A stretch of DNA of 52,569 nucleotides from positions 1 through 52,569 of the IMG/VR virus record IMGVR_UViG_3300020445_001331. One strand, 5' to 3'. Origin of the DNA: a virus. Below the pieces are notes generated by a model. It was not told the DNA's origin. It searched no databases and was given only the letters and a program-made list of their open reading frames with translations. A program made the translations under genes and the position numbers. Below are positions 3,001 through 52,569 of the stretch, piece after piece (within the stretch, counting starts at the first letter, position 1; every line of letters starts with the position of its first letter).

Positions 3001-3020
3001 TAATGGGCGGTAAATACAGT

Positions 3021-30708: not shown

Positions 30709-30729
30709 TGTTATTAACCCCTATGTTAG

Positions 30730-30737
30730 TATTTATC
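30730..30737 (-). promoter_or_regulatory. T4-type late promoter-like box
   Basis: The minus strand reads GATAAATAC, one mismatch from TATAAATA, 21 nt before the ATG at 30708. It lies in the 31-nt gap after the 605-aa gene, the kind of place a late promoter would occupy. Confidence 0.4.
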
Positions 30738-30739
30738 TT

Positions 30740-32557: not shown

Positions 32558-34581
32558 ATCGCTGTGTTCTCCCCTGCGTACATAATATAGTTAACAGTCA
32601 TGTACGGATTCATTATGTCTACTGCTGTACCTAATGCGTTGTTTGTTAGTACTCCACCTGATGTAGCATACGCCTGACCTTGGCCAGTTCCTGTTGGAGC
32701 GTCATATTGTATACCTTGTGGATCGTTTGGAACGCCACTAATATCTCTTATTGTGTAATATTGATCTCCACTTGGTCCTCTTAAATCGTGTTCGTGTTCT
32801 GGTAAGTTAGTAACTGCAAGACTTCTGTTCTGTTGTCCTTCAACTGAACCTATTGTGTCTGCCGCCGCTGATGTAACAACGTTAGCTGAACCACCGCCCA
32901 TGTTATCTTTACCTAATGCAAATCTACCTCTTAAATCAGGTAATGCAAATTTACCTGCCGCTACAAGTGATTGATCTTTAAAGTTGTAACCTATTACATT
33001 AAACAAGTTTTGATATTCTGCAATAGTAACTTCTTGTCCATAACATAATACCCAATCAGTTGGAGCAGTATCTCCACCATATGGAGTTATCATTCCAATT
33101 GGTAATGTAGGAATTGATTTAAACAAGTTAGTTCTTGAAATTTTATAAACGCCTGTGTCACCAGTAACTCTATTAACTAATATTTCATCTGAAGTTAATG
33201 AGCTTGATAATTCTGTTTTATTTGCAACAAAGCTATTTGAAATAGATGTTGTAAATGTTTTAGTACTTGCATCTTGTCCGTCAAATGTAAATGACGGTGC
33301 AGTTACATCACCATTCATTTGGAATGTTGTTGAACTTGCAAGTTTGTCTGTTGATCCAGAACGTCCTGAAACTGTTCCTGTAACGTTACCTGTTACGTTA
33401 CCTATAAAGTTTTGTGAATAAACATTTAACCATTGTTCGTTAGCTGTACCTAAATTACGTGCTGTATTTGAATTAGGAACAATGTTTTGTGTTGTTAATA
33501 GTCCTGCTATATTTGAATCACCGCCAACAAATAATTTTTTAGCAATACCAACACCACCTTTAGTAATAATACTACCTGTTGCTATTGTTGAAGCATCTGT
33601 TGTACCGTCAACTAATAAAGCACTATCAGTTTGAATATTACCTGAAACGTCTAATGCTTGGTCTGGACTTAAATTATTAATACCAACTTTAGAAGTTGAA
33701 TCAAATCTCATTACAGTAGTTGTTGTACCGTTGTTGTTAACTCTAATGTCAATGTTTGAACCTGAAGTATTATGTCCTATAATACCTGCTTGTCCTTCAA
33801 TGCCCATAGTTAACGTACTTGATGCACCAACAGTTATACCACCGTTATTTTTTACAGTTATAGGATACAAACTTTGTGAGTTTGCATCGTTACGCATAAA
33901 GTTAGAAGCCGCTACTGAAGTTCCTCCAACAACTAATGCTTCTGCCTTTTCTGCCGTACCGTAATATTTTCCTGCACCAGCACCTGTAATATCTGCTGAA
34001 CTTAAATTAAATCCTGGATTAATAGTTGTGAAACCTGTAATTGTTGTCTTAGGTGTAAACGCCGCCGTTGAATAAATTGCTAATGTCTTTGCACTAACTT
34101 CAACAACTAAACAAGTGTAACTAACATTGTTAGTTCCTACTATTGTATCTGCTTTAACACCTGTTGATAATCCATCACTGAATGACGGACCAACTAGCAC
34201 CCAACCTGAACCTGTGTATAAAAATAATTGTTGGTTATCAGTATCAACCCAAAGGTCACCTGTTACTGATTGTGCCGCACCTGGTTGTGTTGTTGCTTTC
34301 TTTAATCCTGATGCACTAATCCATGTAGTACCATCGTAAAGTTTTAATTGATCAACACCTGGTGTATTATCATACCACAGTTGTCCTTCAACTGGGTTAC
34401 CTGGTGCTGTACTATTTGTAAAATTCTCTAATAAGTGTAAAAAGTTTTCAGCAATGGCTGTTCCATAGGCAGTTGTATTTCTACCTGGTAGTGACAAAGA
34501 CGTTGTTTGGTTAAGTGTATTATCCTCAACCGTTATGCTACCTTTGTTAGCTAGGTCTGTATGGTTTACTGTATAAGCCAT
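32554..34581 (-). CDS. Short tail fibre-like protein with phage tail collar domain
   Basis: The 675-aa protein combines the shared N-terminal module (GRNTTAYGTAIAENFLHLLENF; GQLWYDNTP; GDLWVDTDNQQLFLYTG) with a long beta-rich shaft. From about residue 490 it has a phage tail collar domain: IGMITPYGGDTAPTDWVLCYGQ, FALPDLRGRFALGKDNMGG and the metal-binding-type NLPEHEHDL. T4 gp12 has such a domain, so this is a likely receptor-contacting fibre. It ends NPYMTVNYIMYAG, the usual C-terminal strand of collar proteins. The start follows TAATAA of the 204-aa gene. Confidence 0.88.
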   Translation of the reverse strand: MAYTVNHTDLANKGSITVEDNTLNQTTSLSLPGRNTTAYGTAIAENFLHLLENFTNSTAPGNPVEGQLWYDNTPGVDQLKLYDGTTWISASGLKKATTQPGAAQSVTGDLWVDTDNQQLFLYTGSGWVLVGPSFSDGLSTGVKADTIVGTNNVSYTCLVVEVSAKTLAIYSTAAFTPKTTITGFTTINPGFNLSSADITGAGAGKYYGTAEKAEALVVGGTSVAASNFMRNDANSQSLYPITVKNNGGITVGASSTLTMGIEGQAGIIGHNTSGSNIDIRVNNNGTTTTVMRFDSTSKVGINNLSPDQALDVSGNIQTDSALLVDGTTDASTIATGSIITKGGVGIAKKLFVGGDSNIAGLLTTQNIVPNSNTARNLGTANEQWLNVYSQNFIGNVTGNVTGTVSGRSGSTDKLASSTTFQMNGDVTAPSFTFDGQDASTKTFTTSISNSFVANKTELSSSLTSDEILVNRVTGDTGVYKISRTNLFKSIPTLPIGMITPYGGDTAPTDWVLCYGQEVTIAEYQNLFNVIGYNFKDQSLVAAGKFALPDLRGRFALGKDNMGGGSANVVTSAAADTIGSVEGQQNRSLAVTNLPEHEHDLRGPSGDQYYTIRDISGVPNDPQGIQYDAPTGTGQGQAYATSGGVLTNNALGTAVDIMNPYMTVNYIMYAGENTAI

Positions 34582-34584: not shown

Positions 34585-35199
34585 TTACGCCTCGTTAAAA
34601 CCAGTTAAACTCTGTACTCTTACAGTATAGTCTATCTGAATTAGTCTGTTTAAACTTTTCTGTACCGGGTGGAATATAACGTGTGTTAGTAATCTACCTG
34701 TACCACTTGTTGCATAACTTACTAAACCTAACTCATCAAATACATACAAGCTGTTTGAACCTGTTGCATTATCTAAAGCATCTTGTCCACTTGGCTCACC
34801 ATAATCTAATAAGCAAGTAGCAACAATGTCTGTATAGTTTGTACCGCTAACGTGACGTGTTTCAATCTTATTTCTTGTAGGATCTGTGTTATTGATCGAA
34901 TTGTCATCTATTACTTTAGTGTAAGTTTGGTTGTACAAACTAGCATTTGTGCCTGTTGAGTTGGGTGAAAGGTATGTTATGATACCAGTTGGATCGACTG
35001 ATGTTCCACCATTACCAAAGTTCATGGAATATACCATTCCTTGCCCTTGGTTTGCTAAACTTTCTGCTAACGAAATACTCATGTTTTCGTAGTGTATAGC
35101 ATTACGTTTATCAACCAGAATTTCTCCGGTTTCCGGGTTATGTATCTTTATGTGTCCTTGCAAAAGAACTCCTGAATTATCTTTAAAATTGTCTATCAT
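34585..35199 (-). CDS. Virion structural protein (204 aa)
   Basis: The 204-aa protein starts with MIDNFKDNSGVLLQGHIKIH and contains VDKRNAIHYENMSISLAESL, a pattern I associate with structural proteins of T4-like marine phages. The rest is Ser/Thr/Gly-rich with beta strands (NRLIQIDYTVRVQSLTGF). It has no enzymatic motif. Its place between the giant protein and the collar fibre suggests a baseplate or fibre-attachment component, unproven. A GGAT leader and AATAAATA box precede it. Confidence 0.72.
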   Translation of the reverse strand: MIDNFKDNSGVLLQGHIKIHNPETGEILVDKRNAIHYENMSISLAESLANQGQGMVYSMNFGNGGTSVDPTGIITYLSPNSTGTNASLYNQTYTKVIDDNSINNTDPTRNKIETRHVSGTNYTDIVATCLLDYGEPSGQDALDNATGSNSLYVFDELGLVSYATSGTGRLLTHVIFHPVQKSLNRLIQIDYTVRVQSLTGFNEA

Positions 35200-35217: not shown

Positions 35218-35225
35218 TATTTATT
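35218..35225 (-). promoter_or_regulatory. T4-type late promoter-like box
   Basis: Directly overlapping the stop of the giant gene the minus strand reads AATAAATAC, one mismatch from TATAAATA, about 18 nt before the ATG at 35199. It resembles the boxes at 30730-30737 and 19911-19918. Confidence 0.35.
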
Positions 35226-38200
35226 TAGGTAGCGCCACCTCTTTGTTCCTTAAGAACCGTCCAATGTCATTTTCTTGTAATCTCAATGGAGTTCCTGGGT
35301 CAGTCCACTTCTTACCTATGCGTCTAACCACTGTTATCTTGGTGTTAATCGCCGGTGTATCTGTTAGTGTTACTACTGGATTTACTCCATCAACACTAAA
35401 TTCTGCTGGTAATGTAGAATCTCCCTCTGGACTGTCCAAATCAGTGCTTGGATTGAAGGAACTTATCGCATTTTTGCGTAATCTACGTCCACCTACAAAA
35501 ATTTCAAATTCATTTACGTTATTCGGTGTAAAGTCTACAGTAACAGCTTTAGTTGAGCCATCTGCTGTAAACGTCTGTGTTCTAGTTTCGTCTTTATAAG
35601 GTACAGTTTGATATACACTCTGATCTAATACTTGCACTCCTGCTTTATGTATTGTTTTGATACCTGTTCCTAGTGTACCTCTACGCAACTGTCTAATTGC
35701 ACCATCTTCTTTTAAGAAATATTCAATACGTTCTCCTCCTATAAAGAGTATACCTGGAATTCCTTTAGCTCTATTTGGCTCAGGCAAAGTATCTACGTTT
35801 GTTATAAAGATTTTAGTATCGTACCAGTTTAAGTTTTCTGCAAGTGTGTATTCCACATTATCACCTAAACGTTTAAAGTGTGTTCTGTTCAACATATCTT
35901 TAAACTGTCTATAACCAAACTTACCAGTAATTGTGCTATTTGAGAAATGTATTAGCTCTAGGCTATCATTTGTTGCAACATCTACTACCATTCTAATTGA
36001 CTGTTTATCATCTTGTAAGTAGTAATCAATACTTGGAGTTAATAATGCTCCGTTTTTAGTAATCCAAACGTATTCAGCATCTATGGCCGCTTTACGTAAT
36101 TTAATAATTCCTTTTGTAAGCTGGTGGTATTCAGTATAATTATCTGTACCAACTGTAATTGGGTTTCTTGTAACTATGTCTAAGTTTTCTCTTTCAATTT
36201 TTCTAACATCATGATTAGTTAATTGATAAACTGTTACACTTTCATTAAGTGCTGGAGGAGTAGTTAAGTAAACTTTATCTGGAGTTTCTACCCATAAGCC
36301 ATTACCACCTAAGTAACCAAATGCATATTCGCCATTGTTAATTACATAAACATCTAACACATCACCGTCAACACCTACATCTGAAAATAGTTGTATCTCT
36401 GCATTAAAGGTATCCCAGTTCCAAGACTTAGAAATAAACACTTCTGTTCCATTTAGGAATGCTCTTACTTCGTTACCACCAACACCAGCTTGAGTAATTT
36501 GATAATCTCTTAACTTGTAATTTCTAGTTGCTGTTTTAACATTAAACGATTGATTGTATCCTGCATTTAAAATTTTGTTTCCAACTTTAACAATTACATT
36601 ATGCTCTAATGGTTTTTGATTTAATGGAGTTTGTGCAAGTGTAAAGTTATCAGTAGTACCGTCACCTGTAAATGTATCTGTTGCAATTTGTGAGAATGAT
36701 TTAGCGGCACTATCAAATATTGCATATTGTATTACAGCATTGTTATCAGGAGCAGTACCTATTTTAAATACACATAAACCTTTTCCTACATTATAAGTTG
36801 CATCTGTTTCTGCCATATCAACGTTTACAGTTTTTCCATCAACTGTTAAGAAGAAACTTAAAGTAGATTTGTATTTGATTGATGTAACATATAATGAAGT
36901 TGAACCGTCACCTATAAATTGATCAACATCTAATATATGCTCACCATTATTACTCATTGTAATAATATGTACTTGTTGCTGATCTCCAGGAGCAGTTGTT
37001 AATTTAATTTTTTTGTTTTGATAGTCTACAGTAAATTGTGTATCAGATAAAACTGTGCCATGTACTTTTACCCATACATCTTTTTGACTCATTGGTACAT
37101 AATTAACATCAAAGTCTTTATTACTTCCGTCACCTAAATAATTGTAACTATGCAATACACTAGAACCATCTCCAGTTCTTTCATAAACTTTAATATCAAG
37201 TGTATCTAATACTTGTCCTGGAACAAGTTCTTCAGGTCCTTTTGAAGTTAGTGGTGTAACAAAACTGTCACCGTCAACAACAATCTCTTCTGCATTAATT
37301 CCTCTTGCAGTTGAGTATGCCATATCGCCACCTTGTAATAATGTATCGTATCCATCTGGATCTGGAATAAATGAACCATCGCTTGATGCTTTTCTAATTA
37401 CTATAACATCATTTGCTACTGTCGGAATTTTAGTTTCGTCTAGTGTAATTGTACTTTGTCCTGCTCCAGTAATACTTTCCATTACTGCATTTGTATTTGT
37501 TAATACTGTACTTCCATCATAGTCTGGATCATCTACTCTTACACCGTTTTTGTAAACATTATAAACTATTCCTGCTTCTAATGGTTTAGCTAACGTGAAT
37601 ACATTTGTACTTCCGTCTAAAGTAAAGACTTCATCTTCGTAAGTATTATCGTATGTGTCCCAAGTAGTAGTGTAGTAAGGTTCACTTGACCAACCTGTAC
37701 CTGAACCAAACGTGAAACTCTTAACTTCAATTCCACCATAGTCAACACCGTCCATTACTTGTGAAACATCATTTCCTAACATACCTGTTGTTGGACTATA
37801 GAATAAATTAATTCTATCTTGTGCTTGTAGCATAGTAATAGATTTAGAATACTTAACAACAATCGTTGCACCTGTTATTGGAGGTTCGTTAAATGTTATA
37901 AGTCCTCTTTGTCTTGTGTATGACTTATCTGTGTAATCTTTATTATCAGTTGTATATTCACTTTGTAGTGATTCAATACCGTTTACTGTAATTTCAATTT
38001 GTGTAGTTCTTAAATCCATTGGATACTTAAGATCAAATGTTGTTTGACTACCTGTACCAGTAAAGTTTTCTGTTTGTGTTAATGTAGTAATTAAGAACGT
38101 ACCTGTTGTTCTATCAAACTTGGAAATATGATGTATGCTTCTTACTTTACTATTACCTATTTGTGCTGTTATTCTAGCCGCAGTAGAACCTGTTGACTGT

Positions 38201-41200
38201 GTACCTTCAATAGTTATAGTTGGAGCAGATAAGTATCCGCTACCTGGATTAGTAATTGTTATATATTTTATAGATCCACCACTACCAAGTGTAGCTGTTG
38301 CTTTAGCACCAGTTCCGCCACCGCCACTAAATTTAACTTGTGGTACTTCTAAATATCCTGTTCCACCAGTTTTAATATTAGCTTTAGTAACTTCAAAGCC
38401 AACATTGTTAGCCCAGTACTTGTTAGGATAAGTTGTAATAGTTGCATCTTGTCCGTAAATTAAATCGTCTTTAACTTTTAAACTTGCAGGAACAATTTTA
38501 CCAGCATCAACACTATAAGCTGGTGGCATATCAAAGTCTGTTACACCAGTATTAGTTGGATCTGTTTTTGTGTACGAACTTATATACTCTCTAAGTTTTG
38601 CTTTATAAGGTTTAGCTTCTTCAACAAATTTTTCATAACTAGGTAAGCTATCGTTTTGGAAAGTAATTTTTTGTGTTAAATCACCTGCATTGTGTCTAGC
38701 TTTTAAGAAACTAGTTTTAAATGCCCAATCAACGTTTGGTTGTTCTGCAAACGCATAACGCATACTTGAGAAGAATAAGTTATTATATTCAACAGCAAGA
38801 TCGTTAATGAAAATATGATCTCTTAAACCTGTTAATATATTTCTTAATTCAATAGTAGGTTGATCGTCATAGAATGAAGTATCATAACTTAATCCATCAT
38901 ATCCAATATTACTATTTGCTGGATTGTACAATGATGTTTTTAAGTTTATAGTTCCGTTCTCTCTACCTACTGTTTTATATTTTGTAGTATAGTCTGTACC
39001 GTCATTACTAATTTTTTCTAGTAATAACCAACCACCTGATCCAATAGTAGATATTTTAACTATATCTCCTACGTCATCATTTAATCCTTCTAACTGATAA
39101 GAGTAATCAATTAAGTAATCTGTTTCTGTAAATTCACTATAACCTGTGTCATACCAATCAGTATAATTCCACCAAGTAGTTGTATCGTAACTTGAACTTG
39201 AAGTTCTTTCCCAAAGTTTAGTTGAACTATTGTAGGCATATATTGCCCATTTACTATTAACTGTTTCATCTACAGTAACTAATACACTATATCTTCTTAC
39301 TTCTAAACCAGTTGTACTTGCATATCCTGAACCTGAATTTTTAACAGTTGCATTAGTAATAGTACCTGCTGAACTCATTGTTAATATAAGTTCTGCTCCG
39401 CTACCTGCTCCGTAATTTTTAAATTCGTAAGTTGGAACAGTTACATAACCTTTACCGCCATTAGTAACATCAACTCTTGTAAGTTTTCCGTTAACAAATA
39501 CAGGAGTTAGTACTGCTGGAATAACATTAGATACACCAACAAAGTTTAATTCTGCATTAGTTGTTACTGACTTATCAAACTTTTTACCTAGCAACGTTGG
39601 AGTTGCATCTTTACTTAAGAAGTTTGATAAATTGTATTCATCAACAATTAAGTTTTTCTTTAATACATCGTTAGCTCTTTCAACAACTTGTTTTAGAGCC
39701 TCTACACGATTTTTAAACATACCTTGTCTTGGTCTATCTAAAATACCGTATCTTTGTTTATCACTTAATATAGGATCTGGAACTTGTCTGTCATTTGTAT
39801 CAACACCTATTAAACTATCGTACCATTTACGTTCTAGTTCTGCGTTAGGTTTACTTGTACCTAATCCTTCAGACATAATCTGATATTGATTATGAATATT
39901 AATATCTTTATTATCTATTTTCCAATAACGGAAGTTAATTGCATTTTCTGATCCACTTACAAGTGATTGACAGTTATATAATCCAAATCTATCATTTGAA
40001 TACATAGCAACAAATCTTTGTCCTTGTGCCGCAGGATCACTAATTAATTGTGAAACGTCATACGCAGAAGCATTTCTCCATTCTACGTTTGGAATAATTT
40101 TAGTATTTTTAACCCAATAGTAAAACTTGTTAAAGAAGCCTTTCGATACAGTATCGTATTTCTGTATTTGTACATAAGTGTTTACATCTTTAGCTGTACC
40201 ACTAATACCGTCAACAAGTCCTTCTTCTGTATCTGCTATTGCGTTCCATTGAGTAGGTGTAAGTTTTGTTTCAACCCATTCGTAAATATCTATTGACGCA
40301 CCTGTAAATAATTTGTTCCAGTTTGCTGTATTGTAAATTATGTTTCCTTGATAAGGATTTACAAATTTAGCTGTACTTAAATCCCACCATAGTCTACCAA
40401 CATTAGTAACGTCCCAATAGTTTTCTGGATCAATTACTGTTGATGGAGAAGCTGTTCCGTTTGTGTAAACAGCAGGATCGTAATGTGTTTTATAAGTTAA
40501 TTCTTCTTCAGCCGCACCTGCAATTTTTCCTTGTATAGGATCAATGTAGTCTATTGTTTGTGCAACAGGATTAGAAGTTATATTGTAAATGAACACACCT
40601 CTAAATTTATCTAAATCAACTTGTTCTATTGGAGTACGTAATTCTTTCCAAGGACTAGTATCTCTAGTTCTCTTATAATCTAATAGTGTTCCAATGTAGT
40701 TGTTATCTGTAACAGAAAGTTCTGGCATTGGTACATACACGTGGTTTTCGTTAAACAGTAAGTACTCGCCGAATCTTTCAGTTGAAGCATTTTTGTAATT
40801 AAACTTCTCTGCATATAATAATTTGTTTTTAACTTTCTGATACATAAACACTTGACCACTATCTGCATTAACACTTTCAAACTGTGTTAAGTTATTGTCA
40901 AATGTAGTTGTAAGGTTATCATAAGTTGTACTAGTTACAAGGTCACCACCTTTAGAACTTACAATTAAGTCATTACCTTCAAAGTCTAGTGATGCTCCAA
41001 ATCTTTCTGCAACATCATTTTCTGGACTATAAAGAGTTTGCGTAACTGTAAATGTTCCAGCAGTACTTGTATAAATGTAAACTTTACCATTGTCGTTTGA
41101 TCTATCATCTGCTAAAGGAGCCCCAACGGCTAACATATCTCCGTCATCATTTAAGCTAACTGAAGAACCGTATCCAACGCCTATCTTAGGAGCACTAATC

Positions 41201-44200
41201 ATTTGTGATAATTCATAATGCCCATTGTTTAATCTGTAAATTATAACGTAAGGATCACTATTATTAAAGTCTGCCACAGTTGCAATTACTTCTGCACTCT
41301 TACTAATACAGAATGGGTGTGCATACTGTATTAATGCTGACTTATCAAACGTACTATCATCATTAACATCTAAACTAGAATCATTTGGAATATATCCTAT
41401 GTAATCTATATGAGAAGTTAATGCTGTCCAGTAAGCTATATCCCAAGCACCTGGTGTTAAATTAGTTTTTGCTTTATAAAATGCACCTAAGTATAATACA
41501 ATATCATTTGTGTAATAAGTTAATGTAACATCAAATGCACCTTTAAAGTTTATGTTTTTACTTCTAGCCCACTCGTAAACTGTGCCGTCAGCATCAGTAC
41601 CATGGTTAATAAAGTGTATTCTACCACTGTTAGAAGTAGATGCATTTCCTGGAGCACTTACAAACAATCTATAAAAACTATCTAGTGTACTAGACTTATG
41701 AAGTTCTATTTGAGTACCTAAATATCTATTTGATTCTCTTTGTGGGTTAGTGTAACCAAATTGGAAACTAAACAATCCTGAACCCATTTTTTCATAAACA
41801 AAATATGCACCTTCATTAGTGTATGCACTTGCTGAACCATCTGCATCTGCCTTAATTGCTGAAACTTGTTGCCAGTCTTTATTAAGTGGATTAGGATAGT
41901 TAGGTGTTCTAGCTATACCACTTACTGTTCTGTTATTATGAATATTAATTTCAATTTCGTTTTTAAATGTAGGTGATGTTACAGGCAACATAGTTGAGTC
42001 AGTAAATCTAACAACAACTAATTTACCAGTTGTTGCACTTGACATATCTGAAGCATCTAATCTTCCTGATAATCTATCAATACCTGCACTTACTCCATTT
42101 TTAATTGCAATAGTACTAGTATCACTATTAGTATGACCAAACTTAAATGTTCCTGTTCTATTTTTAACATACAATCTACAATCTAATAATTGTTCTTGTA
42201 AGTAAATAACTTCTGCTTCTGCATTAGAAAGTTGGTCTACAATAACATCTCCTATTTGTGGAATATAAGGATCACCATTATTATCAAAGTTTGTAAATGT
42301 TACATCAACGTAACCGTCCCATAAATCAAATACATTATGTCCACCTACTTGATTTGTATATGCTGTATCTATTCCTAACGTTGCTGGATCATAAACAGTA
42401 CCTAAACTATTTCTAATTTTATTAACGTGCATTTTGAAGTTATCGCCATTAGTTAAAGTATCTGTCCAAGCCTTGTTACCTCTAAAGAACCAGTAAGGAC
42501 TTAAATCAGGCATTCCTTGTTTATTGTAGAAACTTAAATGTCCTATCTTACCACCCATTGTTGGATCAGTAACTTGATTCAACGCATAAACATCGTCCAT
42601 TGTATTGTAATAAACTTCAGGTGTTTTACTTTCGTTTTGTGTAATAATATCCTGTACTACAAACTGTGGAGTTGTAACTTCTTTAGTAGATGAAGTAAAA
42701 CTAGTTAAACCAGTAATTTTCCACCAACCACCAAAGTCACTTGCTCTGTTTAAAGGATTAACTGCAACATAAGTTCCCATTGCAAGTGTTCCAAGCATAG
42801 CTGAACCACTATCACTAAACGTACCGTTAGCATCTCTAACATAAACAGTTGCTTGGTTTACGTTTGCAACATGAATATAATCTACTGTACCTAATCCTGT
42901 ATCTGTTGAAAGTATATCTCCAACATTAGGAGTTCTTAATAAGTTGTCGAAGTAAAGTATTGCATCAATTTTACCTGCAATAGTTTTACTTCCATCAAAC
43001 TGTGCCACACCTGGGCCGTTACTACCAAATGGTAATATTCCGTTTGGATAATTCTGTGAATACTGTTTCCAGTTTAATACAAGTGTATCACCAACTGCTG
43101 ATCCTTCAAATTGAGCCACTGGTGCTCTAATTAACATATGATCAGTTGGAACGTTAAAGTTATAATTTCCTCTTATAGCATAAACAACTTCTGGATATGC
43201 TGAGCCATTCCAAGACGCTTCAGCTATTGTGGCTGTGTCATAAAAACTATCAAATGTTAATGTACCTTGTGCCGCCGATATAGGAAATAGAGCTTCCCAG
43301 AAGTTTTCTTGATAGTTTACAATATCATCTTTAGCATAACTTACGTTACCTGTAAAGTTTCCAGCAAATTTAGTTTTTAAATTACTAGCCTGTGGAGCAC
43401 CTACAACTAACCACTTATCATCTCTTGATAATGCTAGTCCTGTTCCAAACTTACCATCTCCTGTGTATAAGCCTGTTGGAGCTTCAATTGTTTGTGCGTG
43501 AAGATATTGTCCTGTATCACTTGATCTACTATAAACATAAACTTTGTTTGATTCACTTGCACCAACAATTAGTGTTACGTTTCTTTCATCACAAGCAATT
43601 ACTTTACCAAAGTTTGTACTTGCATCACCTGTTTCAACGTTTGAAATAACTTGATGTTGTGAGTGTGTTGGATTATTTTGTAATACTATCCAACGACTGT
43701 TACTGTCATCATCAATCCAAATGTTTTCGCCTACTTTAAGTTGATCATTAATTAATCTTGTGTTAGCATCTTCTAGTGATGCAACTCTAGATGATATAAA
43801 GTTAGTAACAAATCCAAAGTTAGCTGATTGATCTTGTGCTTCTTCTAAGTCTGGTGTTACACCATTTGCATAACAAACAATAGTTCCTAGAACACATTCT
43901 TTTACTTTATAAAACTTCTCGGCATCAGGGGCATCAATAACACCTATAATATCATTAGGAACAAATGTTGCTTGTTGACCTGCTTTTAAATTAAATGTAG
44001 TTGTACCAGCTTCAGTATCTGAACTAATAGATTTAACTTGGAAGTCTGTACGTGTGTATTTTAATACGTCCCAACTTAAAGATGCTTTACTTGTACCAGT
44101 CCATATATAATCACCAATGTTATAATCAGTTAAAGTTAATGCTAATATGTCATCATACTTTGCTACTTGCGTCTTAACATCTGCTGAATTAACATAACCA

Positions 44201-47200
44201 GCAGTTTGTATATAATCTGTATCTTTATACTTTGTAGGGAAAGGTTTATGATTATATCCATCTGGTTTTAAATAAGTTTCAAATGGTCTTTGTCTGTAAA
44301 TTAAATCTGTTTCTTTACCTGTTATACTAGATACAAGTTCTACAGGTTGTGGACTTAATCTAAATTTAGCTTCGTCAAGTTTGTATTCAACTTCATCATA
44401 AGATTGTGCTGATCCTAATTGACCTAATCTAATTGCCCACTCTTCGTAAAACTCTACACTATCGCTTGTTGTATTTGATAATGCATCAAATAGTTTTGTT
44501 AAAGAATTCTTTGTACCTTTATCTTGAATAAATCCTTGATAGAATTTATACTGTGAAACATCATCATTAATAATGTTTTCTAAATACTGACGTTTTTGAT
44601 AACCAATTAAATGCTGTGCAACTCTTTGTTGACTTTCATCAAAGTTATCTGTATCTAAATCATAGAAGTCGCCAAACTGTTTTGCTTTATAGTCTAAGTT
44701 TGCAATTAATCCTGACTGTGGTTTTTCATTTAAACGTTCCCAGAATTTAGCATCAAATACATCTGAACCTGTTACTTTTACTTTAGCAACATAATAAAAT
44801 TCTTTATACTTAACTGTATCGCCTATTGCATAATCTTGCCAAGGTTCCCATTCAGTAACTTTAGCATCATCAAAAACAAATCCTGGAATATTAAATCCAC
44901 CAGTCCATTTATCAGTTCTGTATCCTAATACTTTAATTCTTTCTTGTCTATATCCTGGCTCTAAATCATAAATGTAATCTTTGAATACAGTTGTGTTATC
45001 AAGTAATACAACGTGTTCAATTTGTACTAAAGGAATCTTAACAGCATAAATTCCGTCTGTTGTATTCTTTGTACTAATTTCCATATAGTTGTCGTTATCT
45101 CTATATGTGTTAATAAATGCTTTTAGTAATTTTTTACCATCTGCTTTAAACATATTGTAACCATAGAAGTTATCAAAAATGTTATCTGCTACATGGTTCT
45201 CTCTAGCAAAGCAAAGTCTGTTTGCACCAGCACTTAAAGTTATTACACTATTTGCCGCCCAGTTCTGTGTAGTCCAGAACATAAATTCTCTTGCACTTAA
45301 AGACCAATCTTCAACTTGATTAATTTCTGTATTGTATTGCTCAAATCTAAATCCTACGGATTTTAAATATCTTTCGTAACCTAATATAAAGTCAACTACT
45401 TCTTGAATAGTTCTAAACATTGTACCGTAAGCTAACTCAACCGGTTCGTCATTAATTCCTTCATTCCATTGTCTATGGAAAACTGCTGTTCTTCCACCTG
45501 TTACAGGAAGTTCTGCTAATTTTACAAATTTAGTTTGATCAAATGTGTCCTCGGCTGTATGTAAAGTTTCAGTCATATAGTATTGACCACCAAACTCTGC
45601 AATTAGTCCTGGGCTATAAGTTTCTCCACCTTTCCAAGTTACATAATCTTCAGAAGTTCCTCCAACTACTACTGTTGGATCATCTGCTAATGAAACTGGA
45701 GTAAAATATTTAAAGTATGGATTATTATAATTGTAACCTCTAACAATAAATCCTGATGGAACTTTTTCTATAATTACACCACTATATGGAACAAGGTCAA
45801 TTACACTACTCTGGTTAAGGAATACTTGATAGTTTTCATCTGGAACAAATACATTACCTTCATTAAGAGGAGTTCTTGAATCAAGTAATAATTTAAATTT
45901 ATTCTTATCTGTGTATCCACCAATTTTTAATCCTAATTGGTTAGTAACATTTTTTAAATCAGTTTTATATTGCGTGTAATACTTAATAGTCTTGCTATTC
46001 ATGTATTCAGCAACATAGTTAACAAACCCTGAAGTCATTACTCTTGATGTATCTTCTGTTGTATTAGGAAATACTAAATCTTCAAGTCTTAATCTTTTAT
46101 TAGTTGCACTATAGATAACTTCTTTTGCAGGATTACGTTTAATTCTTGCTCTATCAAATCCTAGTCCCATAATTTTAGTTGGTTGGTTTAATAACCAAGC
46201 TATCATTAATGCAAAAGGATATTCTGAACTTCTACGCCAAGCTGTTTCAGTAGGTGATTCATCACCAAACACAAATGGATTTTGTGTTCTATTACTAATA
46301 TAATTTTTTGCATAGTTAGAATCTAATGGACTTATTAAATCTCCAGCATCGTTAACTGGAATATGCTTTGTAATATTTGCTCTTGCATACTTACTATTAT
46401 AAGTTACAGGCTCATTAGGTATTCTATATGCACCCTTTTCTATGTCTTGCCATAGAATTTTGTTTTCACTTGTATAAGGTGCCGCACCATAAACAGTTTC
46501 CCACCAAGTTGGTTGTTCACTATATCCTAATATTTCCCAAGGATGTGAATGAGGACGGTCTGTATCATATGCTTCTTTATATACAGCTCTCCAATATCCA
46601 GCATTCTTTTTACCTGTTGGTGAATTAGTGTTGCTGTAATTAAATGTAAAGCTGTTAGTTCTTTCCCAGAAACTATAATCTGAATAGTCTGGACTTCCTA
46701 ATGCATTATTCCATTCAATAAACTCAGGTAGTAATGCTTTATCTCTTGCCCATTTAGTAAATCCTGTATCTCTATTTTCTCCGCCAATGAATTCGTGTAT
46801 ATTGATCATTGTAGCGTCATAGTCTACTTTAATATTATTGTAAATTCTTTTTTCTAACTCTAATAATAAGTCATCTCTAAAGTCATTGTATGCAACAAAT
46901 ATATTTCCATCGTGTCCTTGTATAACTTTTACAGGAGATTGATAAGTTGTATCTGTAAATATCTCAGGTTTAAATTTAGGATATAAACCTAATTTAGTTG
47001 GCGTAGCTGGAATATATGAACCGTCAGTATTTTCGTATTCGTATATGTCAATAGTATCACCAACAACTTTAGTTTTTGTAATTGTTACAAAGCCACTATA
47101 ATTACTTTCAAACTTATAATCTGTTCCATGAATAAGTTGTACTCCGTTTATATAAATGTTTACAGCTCTATTAGTACAAGTTGTAAGGTCAAATGCTTTG

Positions 47201-49947
47201 TTTAATGCATAATATTGTGTACTTGCGTTTTGTACAACGTGTGTTGATTTTTTAGGACTTAAATATCCAATCATGTCACTAAAGTAAAATGACATTTCAC
47301 TGGAATTATACTTGTTAAGTTTTTCCATCACTTTATCAAAGTGAATTTTATTTTGTCCGTCGAATCCTAAAGTATCTGCTGTTTGTAAAAATAGTTTTCT
47401 AAATTTACCATATTCTTTTTTAGCATATTGTAATGCTTTGATAATGTTAGCATCTTTATTTGTTATGTGATAGTTTGCTAAATTAAAAGGTCCACTATGC
47501 TGTACAAATTTTGTACCATAAGATGCTAGTGTTCCTAAATCTCTTAAATTACCTGTTCCTGGAAAGTCACCTACAAAGTCATCACGTAATTCACAAATAC
47601 TTAAAACGTGATCATTAACTTCACCTAACGTAAAAGACCCAATGTTATTATTAAGTGGGTTACGTTCTAAGTTTGATGCTAATTCATAAACACCATTTGC
47701 ATTTTTCTTTGTAGCACTTTTAGTTTTAATTACAAGTATATCGTCTTTTGTTAAATCATTAGTAAAAGTAACGTATGCAATTTTATTAATTCTATTAATT
47801 GTATAGTCTGTAAGATTTTTCTTTCTTATATTGTTTACATAAACTCTTACCCATAAGTCATTAAGATCACCACTATTATTATAAACATCAATTGGAAAGT
47901 CATTGTACTTTGTATCAACAATATATTGTCTATTAACTAACTGCTTACTATCTTCATAGCCTTTAGTCCAACCAGATGTATATGTAAATGTAGTTCTATC
48001 TGTGTACTCTCTTAAAAGACCTACTTCTGTTTTTGCTGTTGTATTTGCGTAAGTAGTTTGATACGTAAATGTATCTTGCAACAAATTAAAATCAAATACA
48101 ATATCGCCTGTATTTTCTAATGCTCTATATGTTAAAGGAAATCCTAATGTAGTATCATTAGCACCTGATCCTTTTTTGTAAGAGAATAATTTAGTTCCTG
48201 CAAAAGTTGAACCTGGATAAGTTGTTGCATCATTAAAGTCATTTCCACTTTGGTCATACAAATCAAACGTTGGTGCTTGGTTAACTGCTGTCTTATCTTG
48301 TCCAGCTTTCCATTTAGTTCCAGTATAGTACCATACTTTACCTTTGTAGTCTGTACCGTCTGTAATTAATACTGTTTCGTTTTCTAATGGATCTGTATCT
48401 GCTTCATCTACTAAACTAATTTGTCTTACGTTATTATGTGTAATAAATTTAACTTTAAAAATTTTACCTGCAACTCTTGTGTCAGGGTCAGCAGTAAATA
48501 GAATTCTCATTCCGTCTGCAACATCTACGCCATCAATGTTATATCCTAACGAACCTTCAATAGTTGAAAATACATCTTTAGTATATGTGTCTAATAAGTG
48601 AACATCACCTTTAGCATAAGTTCCGTAATTCCATAACTTTAGCTTTGCACCAAATTCAATAATTGGTCTTGTTGCTCTACCTGTTTGATTAACATCACTA
48701 GGTTCGTCATTAATTAATGCTGTTGTTTCTAGTACTGACTTATGGAACCATTTGTTATATCTTGCCCAAGCACTTTTACTAGTTGATGCTCTGTTCTGTA
48801 CAAGGTAATCTTTGTCCGTTGCCCAGGCGTTAGCATGAGAGAACGGAGCTCTATCAAACTTTTTACTATCAAATAGTATTGCTTCACTAGTGCTTACTGT
48901 TCCTGGAACTTCAATATCTTTTTCTGCAATTAATTTAATTTCTTCACCAACACCTTCAACATACCAGTTACCTTCTGCATACTTGTCTGGTGTTACTGTA
49001 CCTTTAAAATTAACTTTCATACCGTTTGACATTTCGTAACCGTTTGTCATTGAGTATGTTTTCTTACCAACTATTTCTGCTTCTACATCAATAGCTGTAT
49101 TATCTAAAATATCATAAACTTGTATTAATCCACTTGCATTAATATCATTACCATTTACATAATATAATGTATCAGGTGCAAGTATATCAACTGTAAATTC
49201 AATAGTTCCTACATCTGTGCTATGTGTACTATCACTAATACCTACACTATAATTGTAATCTGGATCTAATGTTCTAGCAGTTTTAATTGACATAGGCATA
49301 CCAGGAGTATTAATCTCAAACTTGTATGTCTGTCCTCTATATAATTTTAAAGTAGGGTTAGGAGTTTGTCCATCAGGTGTAAAAAGATATGATTTATTAT
49401 CTAAATTGTCTACACTTGTAACTGTGTAAGTACTTGTTAATCCTTTTGCTTGTCCAACAACAGGAATACTTAAAGGTCCATTTTCTAACCAATAGTAATC
49501 TCTAAAGTTTGTAAACTTATCCCAATCAATATTAGGGTTCCAAGCATAATACTCTTGGCTAAACAATGTACTGTCGTTATCAACAGTACCGTTGAATGCT
49601 TTAATTTGATTTTTTAAATCGTTGTAGTCTTTGTAGAACGTTACGTTATCTAAATTGTCTTTAATAACAGTAGCAGGTTCTAATTGATAATTTTCTCTTT
49701 GTGTGCTTACATCACTAACGTAAGTATCTGCGGCCTTACGTGCTTTAGCAATTCTTCTACCATAGTAAGAACTGATTTTTTCTGCAACACCTGGATTTAA
49801 TAATTGATCAAGTGTAGCACTTAAAAACTTTTTATTGTGTGCAGTTCTGAAATATCTTGGAAGGTGCTCGGCACTAGTCCTTACACGGCCAGTGTCGTTA
49901 GTGCCAGCCGGTAATGGATATTCGTTTTGATTATCATCATATGCCAT
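35221..49947 (-). CDS. Giant virion structural protein (4908 aa), baseplate/tail-associated
   Basis: A single uninterrupted 14.7-kb gene coding about 550 kDa. Residues 1-150 (KFLSATLDQLLNPGV; SSYYGRRIAKARK; FSQEYYAWNPNIDWDKF) resemble an N-terminal region I associate with marine T4-like baseplate proteins. The middle holds propeller/FG-GAP-like repeats with (L/V)AVGAP (near 2180 and 2940), FGASLDFEG (near 2990) and FGEYLLFNE (near 3070). About 3500-3900 are GGxGYxxxP and GSGYxSAPTI repeats. From 3960 to 4800 at least six (F/Y)xxDGSTxxFxL modules follow. The gene starts on the stop of the gp6-like gene (TAATG) and so replaces or extends the gp7/gp8 position of T4. It probably forms part of the baseplate periphery and fibres. 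Confidence 0.85.
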   Translation of the reverse strand: MAYDDNQNEYPLPAGTNDTGRVRTSAEHLPRYFRTAHNKKFLSATLDQLLNPGVAEKISSYYGRRIAKARKAADTYVSDVSTQRENYQLEPATVIKDNLDNVTFYKDYNDLKNQIKAFNGTVDNDSTLFSQEYYAWNPNIDWDKFTNFRDYYWLENGPLSIPVVGQAKGLTSTYTVTSVDNLDNKSYLFTPDGQTPNPTLKLYRGQTYKFEINTPGMPMSIKTARTLDPDYNYSVGISDSTHSTDVGTIEFTVDILAPDTLYYVNGNDINASGLIQVYDILDNTAIDVEAEIVGKKTYSMTNGYEMSNGMKVNFKGTVTPDKYAEGNWYVEGVGEEIKLIAEKDIEVPGTVSTSEAILFDSKKFDRAPFSHANAWATDKDYLVQNRASTSKSAWARYNKWFHKSVLETTALINDEPSDVNQTGRATRPIIEFGAKLKLWNYGTYAKGDVHLLDTYTKDVFSTIEGSLGYNIDGVDVADGMRILFTADPDTRVAGKIFKVKFITHNNVRQISLVDEADTDPLENETVLITDGTDYKGKVWYYTGTKWKAGQDKTAVNQAPTFDLYDQSGNDFNDATTYPGSTFAGTKLFSYKKGSGANDTTLGFPLTYRALENTGDIVFDFNLLQDTFTYQTTYANTTAKTEVGLLREYTDRTTFTYTSGWTKGYEDSKQLVNRQYIVDTKYNDFPIDVYNNSGDLNDLWVRVYVNNIRKKNLTDYTINRINKIAYVTFTNDLTKDDILVIKTKSATKKNANGVYELASNLERNPLNNNIGSFTLGEVNDHVLSICELRDDFVGDFPGTGNLRDLGTLASYGTKFVQHSGPFNLANYHITNKDANIIKALQYAKKEYGKFRKLFLQTADTLGFDGQNKIHFDKVMEKLNKYNSSEMSFYFSDMIGYLSPKKSTHVVQNASTQYYALNKAFDLTTCTNRAVNIYINGVQLIHGTDYKFESNYSGFVTITKTKVVGDTIDIYEYENTDGSYIPATPTKLGLYPKFKPEIFTDTTYQSPVKVIQGHDGNIFVAYNDFRDDLLLELEKRIYNNIKVDYDATMINIHEFIGGENRDTGFTKWARDKALLPEFIEWNNALGSPDYSDYSFWERTNSFTFNYSNTNSPTGKKNAGYWRAVYKEAYDTDRPHSHPWEILGYSEQPTWWETVYGAAPYTSENKILWQDIEKGAYRIPNEPVTYNSKYARANITKHIPVNDAGDLISPLDSNYAKNYISNRTQNPFVFGDESPTETAWRRSSEYPFALMIAWLLNQPTKIMGLGFDRARIKRNPAKEVIYSATNKRLRLEDLVFPNTTEDTSRVMTSGFVNYVAEYMNSKTIKYYTQYKTDLKNVTNQLGLKIGGYTDKNKFKLLLDSRTPLNEGNVFVPDENYQVFLNQSSVIDLVPYSGVIIEKVPSGFIVRGYNYNNPYFKYFTPVSLADDPTVVVGGTSEDYVTWKGGETYSPGLIAEFGGQYYMTETLHTAEDTFDQTKFVKLAELPVTGGRTAVFHRQWNEGINDEPVELAYGTMFRTIQEVVDFILGYERYLKSVGFRFEQYNTEINQVEDWSLSAREFMFWTTQNWAANSVITLSAGANRLCFARENHVADNIFDNFYGYNMFKADGKKLLKAFINTYRDNDNYMEISTKNTTDGIYAVKIPLVQIEHVVLLDNTTVFKDYIYDLEPGYRQERIKVLGYRTDKWTGGFNIPGFVFDDAKVTEWEPWQDYAIGDTVKYKEFYYVAKVKVTGSDVFDAKFWERLNEKPQSGLIANLDYKAKQFGDFYDLDTDNFDESQQRVAQHLIGYQKRQYLENIINDDVSQYKFYQGFIQDKGTKNSLTKLFDALSNTTSDSVEFYEEWAIRLGQLGSAQSYDEVEYKLDEAKFRLSPQPVELVSSITGKETDLIYRQRPFETYLKPDGYNHKPFPTKYKDTDYIQTAGYVNSADVKTQVAKYDDILALTLTDYNIGDYIWTGTSKASLSWDVLKYTRTDFQVKSISSDTEAGTTTFNLKAGQQATFVPNDIIGVIDAPDAEKFYKVKECVLGTIVCYANGVTPDLEEAQDQSANFGFVTNFISSRVASLEDANTRLINDQLKVGENIWIDDDSNSRWIVLQNNPTHSQHQVISNVETGDASTNFGKVIACDERNVTLIVGASESNKVYVYSRSSDTGQYLHAQTIEAPTGLYTGDGKFGTGLALSRDDKWLVVGAPQASNLKTKFAGNFTGNVSYAKDDIVNYQENFWEALFPISAAQGTLTFDSFYDTATIAEASWNGSAYPEVVYAIRGNYNFNVPTDHMLIRAPVAQFEGSAVGDTLVLNWKQYSQNYPNGILPFGSNGPGVAQFDGSKTIAGKIDAILYFDNLLRTPNVGDILSTDTGLGTVDYIHVANVNQATVYVRDANGTFSDSGSAMLGTLAMGTYVAVNPLNRASDFGGWWKITGLTSFTSSTKEVTTPQFVVQDIITQNESKTPEVYYNTMDDVYALNQVTDPTMGGKIGHLSFYNKQGMPDLSPYWFFRGNKAWTDTLTNGDNFKMHVNKIRNSLGTVYDPATLGIDTAYTNQVGGHNVFDLWDGYVDVTFTNFDNNGDPYIPQIGDVIVDQLSNAEAEVIYLQEQLLDCRLYVKNRTGTFKFGHTNSDTSTIAIKNGVSAGIDRLSGRLDASDMSSATTGKLVVVRFTDSTMLPVTSPTFKNEIEINIHNNRTVSGIARTPNYPNPLNKDWQQVSAIKADADGSASAYTNEGAYFVYEKMGSGLFSFQFGYTNPQRESNRYLGTQIELHKSSTLDSFYRLFVSAPGNASTSNSGRIHFINHGTDADGTVYEWARSKNINFKGAFDVTLTYYTNDIVLYLGAFYKAKTNLTPGAWDIAYWTALTSHIDYIGYIPNDSSLDVNDDSTFDKSALIQYAHPFCISKSAEVIATVADFNNSDPYVIIYRLNNGHYELSQMISAPKIGVGYGSSVSLNDDGDMLAVGAPLADDRSNDNGKVYIYTSTAGTFTVTQTLYSPENDVAERFGASLDFEGNDLIVSSKGGDLVTSTTYDNLTTTFDNNLTQFESVNADSGQVFMYQKVKNKLLYAEKFNYKNASTERFGEYLLFNENHVYVPMPELSVTDNNYIGTLLDYKRTRDTSPWKELRTPIEQVDLDKFRGVFIYNITSNPVAQTIDYIDPIQGKIAGAAEEELTYKTHYDPAVYTNGTASPSTVIDPENYWDVTNVGRLWWDLSTAKFVNPYQGNIIYNTANWNKLFTGASIDIYEWVETKLTPTQWNAIADTEEGLVDGISGTAKDVNTYVQIQKYDTVSKGFFNKFYYWVKNTKIIPNVEWRNASAYDVSQLISDPAAQGQRFVAMYSNDRFGLYNCQSLVSGSENAINFRYWKIDNKDINIHNQYQIMSEGLGTSKPNAELERKWYDSLIGVDTNDRQVPDPILSDKQRYGILDRPRQGMFKNRVEALKQVVERANDVLKKNLIVDEYNLSNFLSKDATPTLLGKKFDKSVTTNAELNFVGVSNVIPAVLTPVFVNGKLTRVDVTNGGKGYVTVPTYEFKNYGAGSGAELILTMSSAGTITNATVKNSGSGYASTTGLEVRRYSVLVTVDETVNSKWAIYAYNSSTKLWERTSSSSYDTTTWWNYTDWYDTGYSEFTETDYLIDYSYQLEGLNDDVGDIVKISTIGSGGWLLLEKISNDGTDYTTKYKTVGRENGTINLKTSLYNPANSNIGYDGLSYDTSFYDDQPTIELRNILTGLRDHIFINDLAVEYNNLFFSSMRYAFAEQPNVDWAFKTSFLKARHNAGDLTQKITFQNDSLPSYEKFVEEAKPYKAKLREYISSYTKTDPTNTGVTDFDMPPAYSVDAGKIVPASLKVKDDLIYGQDATITTYPNKYWANNVGFEVTKANIKTGGTGYLEVPQVKFSGGGGTGAKATATLGSGGSIKYITITNPGSGYLSAPTITIEGTQSTGSTAARITAQIGNSKVRSIHHISKFDRTTGTFLITTLTQTENFTGTGSQTTFDLKYPMDLRTTQIEITVNGIESLQSEYTTDNKDYTDKSYTRQRGLITFNEPPITGATIVVKYSKSITMLQAQDRINLFYSPTTGMLGNDVSQVMDGVDYGGIEVKSFTFGSGTGWSSEPYYTTTWDTYDNTYEDEVFTLDGSTNVFTLAKPLEAGIVYNVYKNGVRVDDPDYDGSTVLTNTNAVMESITGAGQSTITLDETKIPTVANDVIVIRKASSDGSFIPDPDGYDTLLQGGDMAYSTARGINAEEIVVDGDSFVTPLTSKGPEELVPGQVLDTLDIKVYERTGDGSSVLHSYNYLGDGSNKDFDVNYVPMSQKDVWVKVHGTVLSDTQFTVDYQNKKIKLTTAPGDQQQVHIITMSNNGEHILDVDQFIGDGSTSLYVTSIKYKSTLSFFLTVDGKTVNVDMAETDATYNVGKGLCVFKIGTAPDNNAVIQYAIFDSAAKSFSQIATDTFTGDGTTDNFTLAQTPLNQKPLEHNVIVKVGNKILNAGYNQSFNVKTATRNYKLRDYQITQAGVGGNEVRAFLNGTEVFISKSWNWDTFNAEIQLFSDVGVDGDVLDVYVINNGEYAFGYLGGNGLWVETPDKVYLTTPPALNESVTVYQLTNHDVRKIERENLDIVTRNPITVGTDNYTEYHQLTKGIIKLRKAAIDAEYVWITKNGALLTPSIDYYLQDDKQSIRMVVDVATNDSLELIHFSNSTITGKFGYRQFKDMLNRTHFKRLGDNVEYTLAENLNWYDTKIFITNVDTLPEPNRAKGIPGILFIGGERIEYFLKEDGAIRQLRRGTLGTGIKTIHKAGVQVLDQSVYQTVPYKDETRTQTFTADGSTKAVTVDFTPNNVNEFEIFVGGRRLRKNAISSFNPSTDLDSPEGDSTLPAEFSVDGVNPVVTLTDTPAINTKITVVRRIGKKWTDPGTPLRLQENDIGRFLRNKEVALPK

Positions 49948-52569
49948 TAATAACTACTCCCAGAGCTGTTACTTGAAGAACTTTGAACTGTTGCCGCTGT
50001 ATAACTAGATCCACTTGCAACACCACTTGTTGATGCAGTTGTTCCTGTAACAATATTACCTGATGCTTTTAACTTACTTGCCGTAATAGCATCTATAATT
50101 GCTACATCATCAACTGTTGCTCCACTTACAAAAACTTCATCTGATTCAGATTTAATTTCATAAAGACTTCCAAATACTTGTGAGTCTTGTTTAGGAACAA
50201 TTACAATGTTTACTAGATCAGGTGCAACTTGCGTCATAACATAAGTAGCCATCTCTGAGAAATGAAAGGTATCACCGAAATCCCAATTTTCTAAAGCAAA
50301 GTATTCGTCTATTGCCGCTATTACTCTTGCTTTAATGTCATTATCGTTAACAACCTGATCTGGATTTTTTACAATCTTAATATTAGCTTGTACTTGAGCA
50401 TCAGCTTTAGATCCAAATAACACTTTATATTTTACTGGATGATAAATTACATCATCACTTATGGACTTAATTTTAGAAATTTCAGAACCATAGTTGTTAA
50501 ACAAATTATCACTACTTGGTGGTAAAGGTTTAGATGTAATTGTATCATTTAAGTATTTTCTAAACTCTGTATCGTAAGTTCTTGTTAGCAAGTAAGTATC
50601 AATAATATTACTTGAACTAGGATCTATTCTGCTGTCATCGTCTGCGGCGTGTACATAATGAAATTTAAGTCCGCTTCTGCCTACGTATGCTTTGTAGTCG
50701 GTTGTCAATGATAATGTTCCTGCTGTTGAGCTATACACTTTAAATACATCTTCAACAACTAGATAAAACACTTGTCCATCTGTGTATGAGCTTAATGCTC
50801 CAACTAAACTTTCGTTTTGTTTTACTAATACTGCATTTGCGGAATTGTCCATGTATTTGTAATCATCAATTCCATCTGATGTTGTGTATTTTTTAAGGAA
50901 CACATATTTTGTTAATGCGTTTGTAGTTTCGTCTACTAAAGTAACAAAAGTTTCAGGATCATCTACAACTCCATCTGAATCAGAGTCATAAAAACTTACT
51001 TCAACTTTTTTACTATCAACATATCCATCGCCATCTCTAAATTCTTTAGATACTTCCCAAGGATAATTTACTGTAAACGGACTTGTACTATCTGGTTGTG
51101 TATTAATACTTAATACATCAATTTTGTCTTTAATAATTTTTCCTGTTTTATTATCAAATATTTTACTTGTACTATCATAATAAAATCTAATTTCTTCGTT
51201 ACTCTCAAATACATATCTTTGAGCTCTTGAAGTAACTGTGTATTTTTCACCATCAGTTTCAAACAATACTAACCAACTTGCATCTAAGGCTTGGTCTGTA
51301 ACGTCACCTGTTTTACCTGTACTAAAATCACTTGTAATGTCTAAGTTATTTTCTGTAATCATACGCCATTGTCTTAATGCACTATCATATCTTAAACCAA
51401 ATGTTTTGTAAGCAAAAATTTGATCAGTAATTTGTGATTGTACATCAGTTAATAACGTTTTACTAAACTTAGGTTTTAATTCTGAAAGAATTGCATCGGA
51501 CGGAATAATATCATTTAATACAATTGGTCCTGTACCATCTGTATTGTCAGTTCTTCCATCTCCTGTAACACTTACAACTTTAACCCATTTATAACTAATT
51601 GCGTTAGAATGGTCTGCGTTTCCAGACATTAACTTATTATTGTCATTAGCCATAAAGTGTTTGCCTGTTGGAGCAGTAAATTTAATTAATGTTCCAGCTT
51701 CAATATATTTTAATCCACTACTTGTAAATGTACCTACTTGCATTTTAGTACTGTTAGAATCAACAAACGAACCTGTTGATTGATTTGTTGCAGTAGTTGA
51801 ACTTGACCATTTAGCACCTAAGTCAGCAACTAACGTTTTAGGAAAGTTAGTCAAATAATAATTTAACATTTGTTTTTGACTTAGAATAGGTGTTATAGTG
51901 TTTACAATAACTCCTTGTACATCTGTTTTAGTTGTAAACGTAAATGATGTTTTTTCAGTAAATGAATCTTTATAAACAACACCATCTGCACCGTACAAGT
52001 TAGTACTTGAATATTTTCCAGTAGCATCTAGTAAATCATAGTATCTTGAAATACCACTTGATGTTCTGTTTACACTTTTTACTTTAATAATTTCTTGACT
52101 TATGCTTAATGGACTAACTTGATAGTCTTCACCAGTAACCATTCTGTTCTGTGTGTAATATGTACTTGGAGCATTAGTTCTAATACTTTCATTACTTTCA
52201 GAAATAGTTGCATTGTCAACTGTATATTTTAATTCAAAAGAAAGTGTAATATTTTCTTGGTTACCTGCTTTTGAAGTGTAAGGTATAGTAGCACTAATAG
52301 AAACTAAATCTGCAGGAACAATATTATATTGATCATTTATACTTGTTCTGTAATAAACTCTAAATTGTCCTTGCGGTAAGTTACCAAACGTACCATCACT
52401 AAAAATTAAATCTACTTTATCTTGTGTTTTACTTAATACACCAAAAATATTTCTAACACTTTTTCTTAAACTGTTATAAACAATATTGTTACCTTCAACT
52501 GCATCAACTTTTGTCCATTGTTCATCTTCAGCACCAATTGAATTTAATTTGTAAAGCCAAATGTCCGAA
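49947..52569 (-). CDS. Baseplate wedge protein, gp6/baseplate J-like (5' end outside window)
   Basis: The frame stays open to the right edge, so the gene is 5'-truncated; 873 residues are visible, more than T4 gp6 (660 aa). Near 52080-52200 the translation reads APSTYYTQNRMVTGEDYQV, matching the AP...NRxVTxxDY signature of baseplate J/T4 gp6 proteins, preceded by DGTFGNLPQGQFRVYYRTS. The ATG at 52142 is internal (the M of RMVTGEDY) and not the start. A Ser/Thr/Gly-rich tail ends the protein. This is the wedge component linking the baseplate to the sheath and marks the virus as a contractile-tailed myovirus. Confidence 0.85.
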   Translation of the reverse strand, partial: SDIWLYKLNSIGAEDEQWTKVDAVEGNNIVYNSLRKSVRNIFGVLSKTQDKVDLIFSDGTFGNLPQGQFRVYYRTSINDQYNIVPADLVSISATIPYTSKAGNQENITLSFELKYTVDNATISESNESIRTNAPSTYYTQNRMVTGEDYQVSPLSISQEIIKVKSVNRTSSGISRYYDLLDATGKYSSTNLYGADGVVYKDSFTEKTSFTFTTKTDVQGVIVNTITPILSQKQMLNYYLTNFPKTLVADLGAKWSSSTTATNQSTGSFVDSNSTKMQVGTFTSSGLKYIEAGTLIKFTAPTGKHFMANDNNKLMSGNADHSNAISYKWVKVVSVTGDGRTDNTDGTGPIVLNDIIPSDAILSELKPKFSKTLLTDVQSQITDQIFAYKTFGLRYDSALRQWRMITENNLDITSDFSTGKTGDVTDQALDASWLVLFETDGEKYTVTSRAQRYVFESNEEIRFYYDSTSKIFDNKTGKIIKDKIDVLSINTQPDSTSPFTVNYPWEVSKEFRDGDGYVDSKKVEVSFYDSDSDGVVDDPETFVTLVDETTNALTKYVFLKKYTTSDGIDDYKYMDNSANAVLVKQNESLVGALSSYTDGQVFYLVVEDVFKVYSSTAGTLSLTTDYKAYVGRSGLKFHYVHAADDDSRIDPSSSNIIDTYLLTRTYDTEFRKYLNDTITSKPLPPSSDNLFNNYGSEISKIKSISDDVIYHPVKYKVLFGSKADAQVQANIKIVKNPDQVVNDNDIKARVIAAIDEYFALENWDFGDTFHFSEMATYVMTQVAPDLVNIVIVPKQDSQVFGSLYEIKSESDEVFVSGATVDDVAIIDAITASKLKASGNIVTGTTASTSGVASGSSYTAATVQSSSSNSSGSSY

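Follow-up and report, generated by a model that had tools for sequence, protein, structure and literature searches.

The window analysed here, the whole 52,569-nucleotide IMG/VR record IMGVR_UViG_3300020445_001331, encodes a 4,908-residue virion protein (the giant) which is probably a wedge protein of the phage baseplate, of the gp7 type but enlarged. A probable function is thereby given to a protein listed in the literature searched as a 'structural' or 'hypothetical' protein. This assignment looks new, and so does the predicted beta-propeller of the marine clade, to which the analysis points as a clade-specific element of a baseplate protein found in a large marine group. A single expressed domain would be enough to test host recognition in these phages, provided that the propeller does contact the host. 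The features discussed below are listed in Table 1.

Table 1. Features of the giant, its neighbours and the ATPase loci of three relatives (window coordinates unless a locus is given).
Feature	Coordinates	Strand	Residues and remarks
Giant virion protein gene (phrog_10938)	35221..49947	minus	whole ORF, 4,908 aa
gp6-like baseplate wedge gene	49947..52568	minus	cut by window end; 1,160 aa in 99.9% identical contig (L012)
Core 1	44188..49947	minus	1-1920; conserved throughout the jumbo-phage relatives
Module B-like domain in core 1	47668..47985	minus	655-760
Second module B-like domain in core 1	46948..47175	minus	925-1000
gp7-like KGT region	44338..44727	minus	1741-1870
Beta-propeller (predicted), first part	43315..43695	minus	2085-2211
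Cassette inside propeller	41164..43314	minus	2212-2928; 717 aa
Beta-propeller (predicted), second part	40636..41163	minus	2929-3104; includes FG-GAP Pfam match (2926-2959)
Core 2	38428..40635	minus	3105-3840; conserved in all jumbo-phage relatives
Module A1, GGxGY type	39298..39489	minus	3487-3550; common to cyanophage gp7
Module A2, GGxGY type	38209..38394	minus	3852-3913; common to cyanophage gp7
Module B1	37879..38073	minus	3959-4023
Module B2	37378..37650	minus	4100-4190
Module B3	36958..37149	minus	4267-4330
Module B4	36718..36927	minus	4341-4410
Module B5	36505..36681	minus	4423-4481
Module B6	35323..35580	minus	4790-4875
204-aa partner gene (phrog_11259)	34585..35199	minus	profile match
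Three fibre-like proteins, common N-terminal domain	29218..34581	minus	first with collar domain (PF07484)
ClpA-like ATPase, RaK2	L005:24982-27291	opposite to giant	
ClpA-like ATPase, 121Q	L006:24944-27232	opposite to giant	
ClpA-like ATPase, CBB	L009:24990-27287	opposite to giant	

The giant is encoded by one intact gene

The ORF starts with ATG and runs in a single frame from 49947 to 35221 on the minus strand; the computed mass and pI of its product are about 550 kDa and 5.0. Two contigs from other metagenomes than that of the window, 3300026266_000011 and 3300005404_000007, have it at 99.9% identity; they differ from it at 9 and 11 nucleotides respectively, mostly in third codon positions. 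Intact and colinear versions of 4,899–5,207 aa were found in 12 further, diverged contigs. The dN/dS of the whole ORF against three diverged copies was 0.15 (nearest copy), 0.16 and 0.28, and it stayed below 0.4 in each region, while GC and GC3 were uniform along the gene.

The preliminary description, made from the sequence alone, had reported one uninterrupted 4908-residue frame and had pointed to a frameshift or an assembly chimera as the result that would overturn it. That result was not obtained: the frame was intact in 14 other contigs. The length of the giant is unusual, and in one relative (L123:1-3000) the gene is spread over two overlapping reading frames around residue 1450 of the window protein, through a natural split, a frameshift or a sequencing error. 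Nevertheless, an assembly chimera or a read-through artefact fusing separate genes is refuted, with a negligible probability, by the near-identical contigs, the diverged intact copies, the purifying selection on all regions and the uniform GC and GC3. Because of the near-identical copies, the twelve diverged versions and the dN/dS of 0.15, the giant is one real, unbroken gene under selection, and chance or artefact is excluded.

One relative (L057/L133) is longer than the window protein, at 5,207 aa, as is another (L139), which has 4,847 aa or more in a locus that begins only at residue ~328. Relatives of the N-terminal part are encoded on 330 IMG/VR stretches. As larger phage virion families are present in PHROGs (phrog_701, 6,136 positions), the size of the giant alone is unexceptional.

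Family membership and cultured relatives

The phrog_10938 profile matched the giant over four stretches (E 0, 1030.9 bits). On this profile match, the giant is a member of an already annotated family, 'virion structural protein', and the family is not new. PHROGs files phrog_10938 under head and packaging, yet the gene sits in a baseplate cluster beside gp6. Giants lie directly after the gp6 slot in Atu_ph07 (4,449 aa), Phosso (4,555), PA5oct (3,857), SCTP-2 (3,807), Vibrio 2.275.O (3,771), CBB (3,340), RaK2 (3,326) and 121Q (3,323), and the AP-J-162 member, ORF58, has 4,455 aa (PMC11242549). The window giant, at 4,908 aa, is longer than those of the cultured phages compared (3,323–4,555 aa). 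It is homologous over both cores to Atu_ph07 gp180, AP-J-162 ORF58, PA5oct gp355, RaK2 ORF070, 121Q gp582 and CBB_236, with 23-30% identity over the full length and the same place after gp6. The giant is hence no unusual object, since its family is known in cultured jumbo phages and cyanophage gp7 is of similar size.

That the giant is a virion protein, as had been proposed, is supported through homologues detected by mass spectrometry (MS) in PA5oct and CBB virions. The record of PA5oct gp355 is annotated ESI-MS/MS, and CBB_236 was represented by 21 peptides in the CBB virion (PMC5259590). In phAPEC6, gp245 (382 kDa, neighbour of a baseplate wedge protein), which we take as a homologue from its position and size, was represented by 17 peptides (PMC7247149). 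Relatives are thus virion-associated wherever MS has been done. These data also bear on whether the giant might be a precursor that is cleaved to several virion proteins. The modular layout would suit such processing, and the MS coverage of only ~8% in CBB and phAPEC6 cannot show an intact chain; however, the cores, the propeller and the C-terminus share one frame in 14 contigs, which argues weakly against cleavage. We regard it as very unlikely.

For the phrog_10938 family, the literature accessible outside subscription papers yielded no structure, no copy number of a member and no earlier gp7 assignment.

The giant follows gp6 in the baseplate cluster

The gene upstream of the giant matched the gp6 family phrog_10646 (6.8e-136), and cultured relatives show the same slot, which confirms the place after gp6 that had been read from the sequence. 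Homology of the upstream gene to the 1,160-aa gp6 of Table 1 was confirmed in five of the eight cultured phages; in Phosso and CBB its gp6 identity is by annotation only, and the far longer upstream gene of SCTP-2 gave no match to this gp6. The order in close relatives is gp53, a structural protein of ~660-950 aa, a gp5-like hub with an OB domain, gp25, gp6 and the giant. In T4 the slot after gp6 is that of gp7, which in each of the six wedges is attached to the gp6 dimer and connects this dimer to peripheral proteins. The gp53–gp5–gp25–gp6–giant order therefore supports a baseplate protein in the gp7 slot. The term 'hub' used in the preliminary description named the wrong part of the baseplate, because both the gene position and a gp7-like motif point to the wedge.

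On the other side of the giant, a homologue of the 204-aa gene adjoins or closely trails the giant in five cultured relatives. It is not adjacent in RaK2, 121Q and CBB, where an opposite-strand ClpA-like ATPase gene replaces it after the giant. The three adjacent fibre-like proteins further downstream have a common N-terminal domain of ~90 aa (phrog_14394/15511) and differ in their C-terminal parts; the common domain suggests one common docking site.

Comparison with cyanophage and T4 gp7

Cyanophage S-SCSM1 has in the same slot a 4,120-aa gp7 (probably phrog_2885) annotated as baseplate wedge subunit. It resembles the giant in its place after gp25-gp6, its similar size, its K-G-T region and its several GGxGY modules, whereas full-length homology is undetectable and the KGT lies at residue 207 instead of 1810. 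Cyanophage gp7 in turn aligned with T4 gp7 around the K-G-(T/I) motif (hhalign 1e-9). The KGT region of the giant, whose K and G are invariant in 40 aligned relatives, scored 31.4 against cyanophage gp7 over a short alignment of 44 columns, compared with 21.2 for the best of 100 column-shuffled decoys. Against the combined gp7 profile it scored 25.3; no decoy exceeded 18.4, and none of the other regions of the giant that were tested exceeded 13.5. Reciprocally, the KGT profile found the same cyanophage gp7 site independently, although weakly (E 0.02-0.97). In the structure model, this region had a pLDDT below 50.

Module A occurs in 6-12 copies per cyanophage gp7, with E down to 4e-15 and none in reversed controls. 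It is also present in further families of phage proteins (phrog_460, 701 and 719), and because of this promiscuity its sharing with cyanophage gp7 is weak evidence of orthology.

T4 gp7 is likewise encoded directly after gp6 and has the K-G(I/T) motif together with a phenylalanine at position −4 relative to the K. It differs in its length of 1,032 aa and in its domains V and VI, which were not found in the giant, and the direct similarity by hhalign is not significant alone (E 0.1-0.67). The gp7 Pfam domains PF21427, PF21428 and PF21456 were not found in the giant, and PHROG and Pfam scans of the 40 KGT regions gave no gp7 family and only phrog_10938 above noise. Profile comparison of T4 gp7 across the whole core gave no match, and the reading of residues 1-170 as the gp7 N-terminal helical domain was unsupported by comparison, the helical part not being found. 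The predicted structure of core 1 matched nothing in the PDB below E 0.25, T4 gp7 included; in BFVD the Atu_ph07 homologue was among the top matches, many of which are unnamed. With the sequence of the giant, the PDB gave only weak chitin-binding, tailspike and integrin matches. No separate T4-type gp7 was found in the relatives searched with the T4-type profile, which could miss a very diverged gp7. As the giant does not match T4 gp7 significantly in direct comparison, it is not classed in the T4 gp7 family; it probably works as a member of it.

A fusion of gp7 with gp8 had also been suggested. Such a fusion (or one with gp9, gp10 or gp11) could account for the fact that gp8 is unrecognisable elsewhere, PF09215 not being found in the seven cultured jumbo relatives and three large viral contigs searched, and module B has a slight similarity to T4 gp10 in places, which exceeds decoys in four of eight copies. 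However, no segment of the giant is like gp8, gp9 or gp11 (the best hhalign score of any segment to T4-like gp8 was 21.7), the resemblance to gp10 is marginal and covers only a short stretch, and the downstream collar-domain protein is a separate product with a weak match to the gp10 C-terminus. The fusion is hence unsupported and, in our judgement, very improbable.

Conserved cores and repeat modules

Compared with the cultured phages, the giant consists of the two conserved cores, a variable block (1921-3104) and a variable C-terminus. Both cores are kept at 25-30% identity across all hosts, while the periphery varies. The GGxGY repeats described earlier were recovered as two modules of ~65 aa with exact GGxGY at 3497 and 3861. 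Of the 'at least six DGST modules', the modules stood, six of DGS/DGT type lying in the last quarter of the chain and two related ones in its N-terminal part, but the exact DGST string occurs only four times. A match to the T7 tail-fibre N-domain (PF03906), below the Pfam cut-off, covers 4269-4350, over module B3. A modular layout with possible fibre-docking repeats is thus supported. The B modules were not detected in the cyanophage gp7 proteins tested.

The middle block carries a predicted propeller and a cassette

The FG-GAP-like repeats noted before were confirmed by PF14312 (3.7e-6, 27.5 bits against a Pfam cut-off of 23). The AlphaFold2 model of the middle block had a mean pLDDT of 87.4, and its best PDB matches in Foldseek were integrin alpha propellers (E 1e-9, probability 1.00); the block is accordingly predicted to carry an FG-GAP/integrin-type beta-propeller. 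The two propeller parts match each other's profiles. The resemblance to integrin alpha lies in the FG-GAP repeats and the predicted fold; identity is 12-14%, and the propeller of the window, unlike that of integrin, is split by a ~717-aa cassette and belongs to a virion protein.

The propeller is present throughout the marine clade. By profile search, its parts were not detected in the eight cultured relatives, nor in the cyanophage gp7 proteins tested, and the cassette was likewise not detected in the eight cultured phages. The middle block has 1,184 aa in the window and ~1,480 aa in Atu_ph07 and Phosso, where it is 15-16% identical and gives no propeller match; it has only 155-250 aa in RaK2, 121Q, CBB, Vibrio 2.275.O and PA5oct. 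Where fully covered, cassettes range over 256-983 aa, with 256-324 aa in three distant relatives. Substitution rates of propeller and cassette exceed that of core 1, and the propeller is the fastest-evolving part of the giant. Cassette swapping was considered, but cassette identity tracks core identity in close pairs, and recent swapping was not shown.

As the propeller and cassette are clade-specific and fast evolving, a role of the modelled propeller in host contact is plausible. One may speculate further that, in a widespread clade of uncultured marine jumbo-phage relatives, the wedge scaffold itself has come to include an integrin-type propeller that touches the host and holds an exchangeable cassette; a single 550-kDa chain, and not separate fibres, would then serve both receptor contact and baseplate triggering; we consider this possible, though rather doubtful.

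Arrangement of the giant in the baseplate

The integrin-type propeller, the T7-tail-fibre-like module, the weak matches to chitin-binding-like modules and to fibre/spike domains of phages, and the missing T4 gp7 match would also fit a baseplate-attached fibre or receptor-binding giant, non-homologous to gp7, that has captured the position behind gp6, with KGT as a convergence or a shared short motif. However, two long conserved cores with a variable periphery resemble a structural scaffold more than a receptor binder, the position beside gp6 is constant, the KGT similarity exceeds decoys and no other gp7 candidate was detected. This alternative is therefore judged unlikely, and the wedge protein of the gp7 type is preferred.

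As such a wedge protein, the giant would be present in about six copies per baseplate, with its core packed against the gp6/gp25/gp53 wedge as gp7 is in T4. The two cores would form the scaffold of the wedge and the remainder an outward arm, whose DGS/DGT modules may be docking sites for the fibres encoded just downstream, the collar-domain one included. The propeller and cassette might then reach the host surface, or couple fibre binding to the baseplate change.

Other genes of the window

Two further genes lie on this phage window, hemC (porphobilinogen deaminase, 12926-13762, minus strand, PF01379, 7.9e-63) and hemE (uroporphyrinogen decarboxylase, 24958-25893, minus strand, PF01208, 4.6e-66). 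Their matches among annotated phage records are few, and these matches look bacterial in sequence. Among 20 related viral contigs, hemC was found in five and hemE in four, and a 110-kb contig has the two side by side. Within ~20 kb (3003-23490) there are eight radical SAM genes, of which some have SPASM domains, interspersed with two UDP-glucose-dehydrogenase-like genes, and an Asp/Asn hydroxylase gene is located at 81-737.
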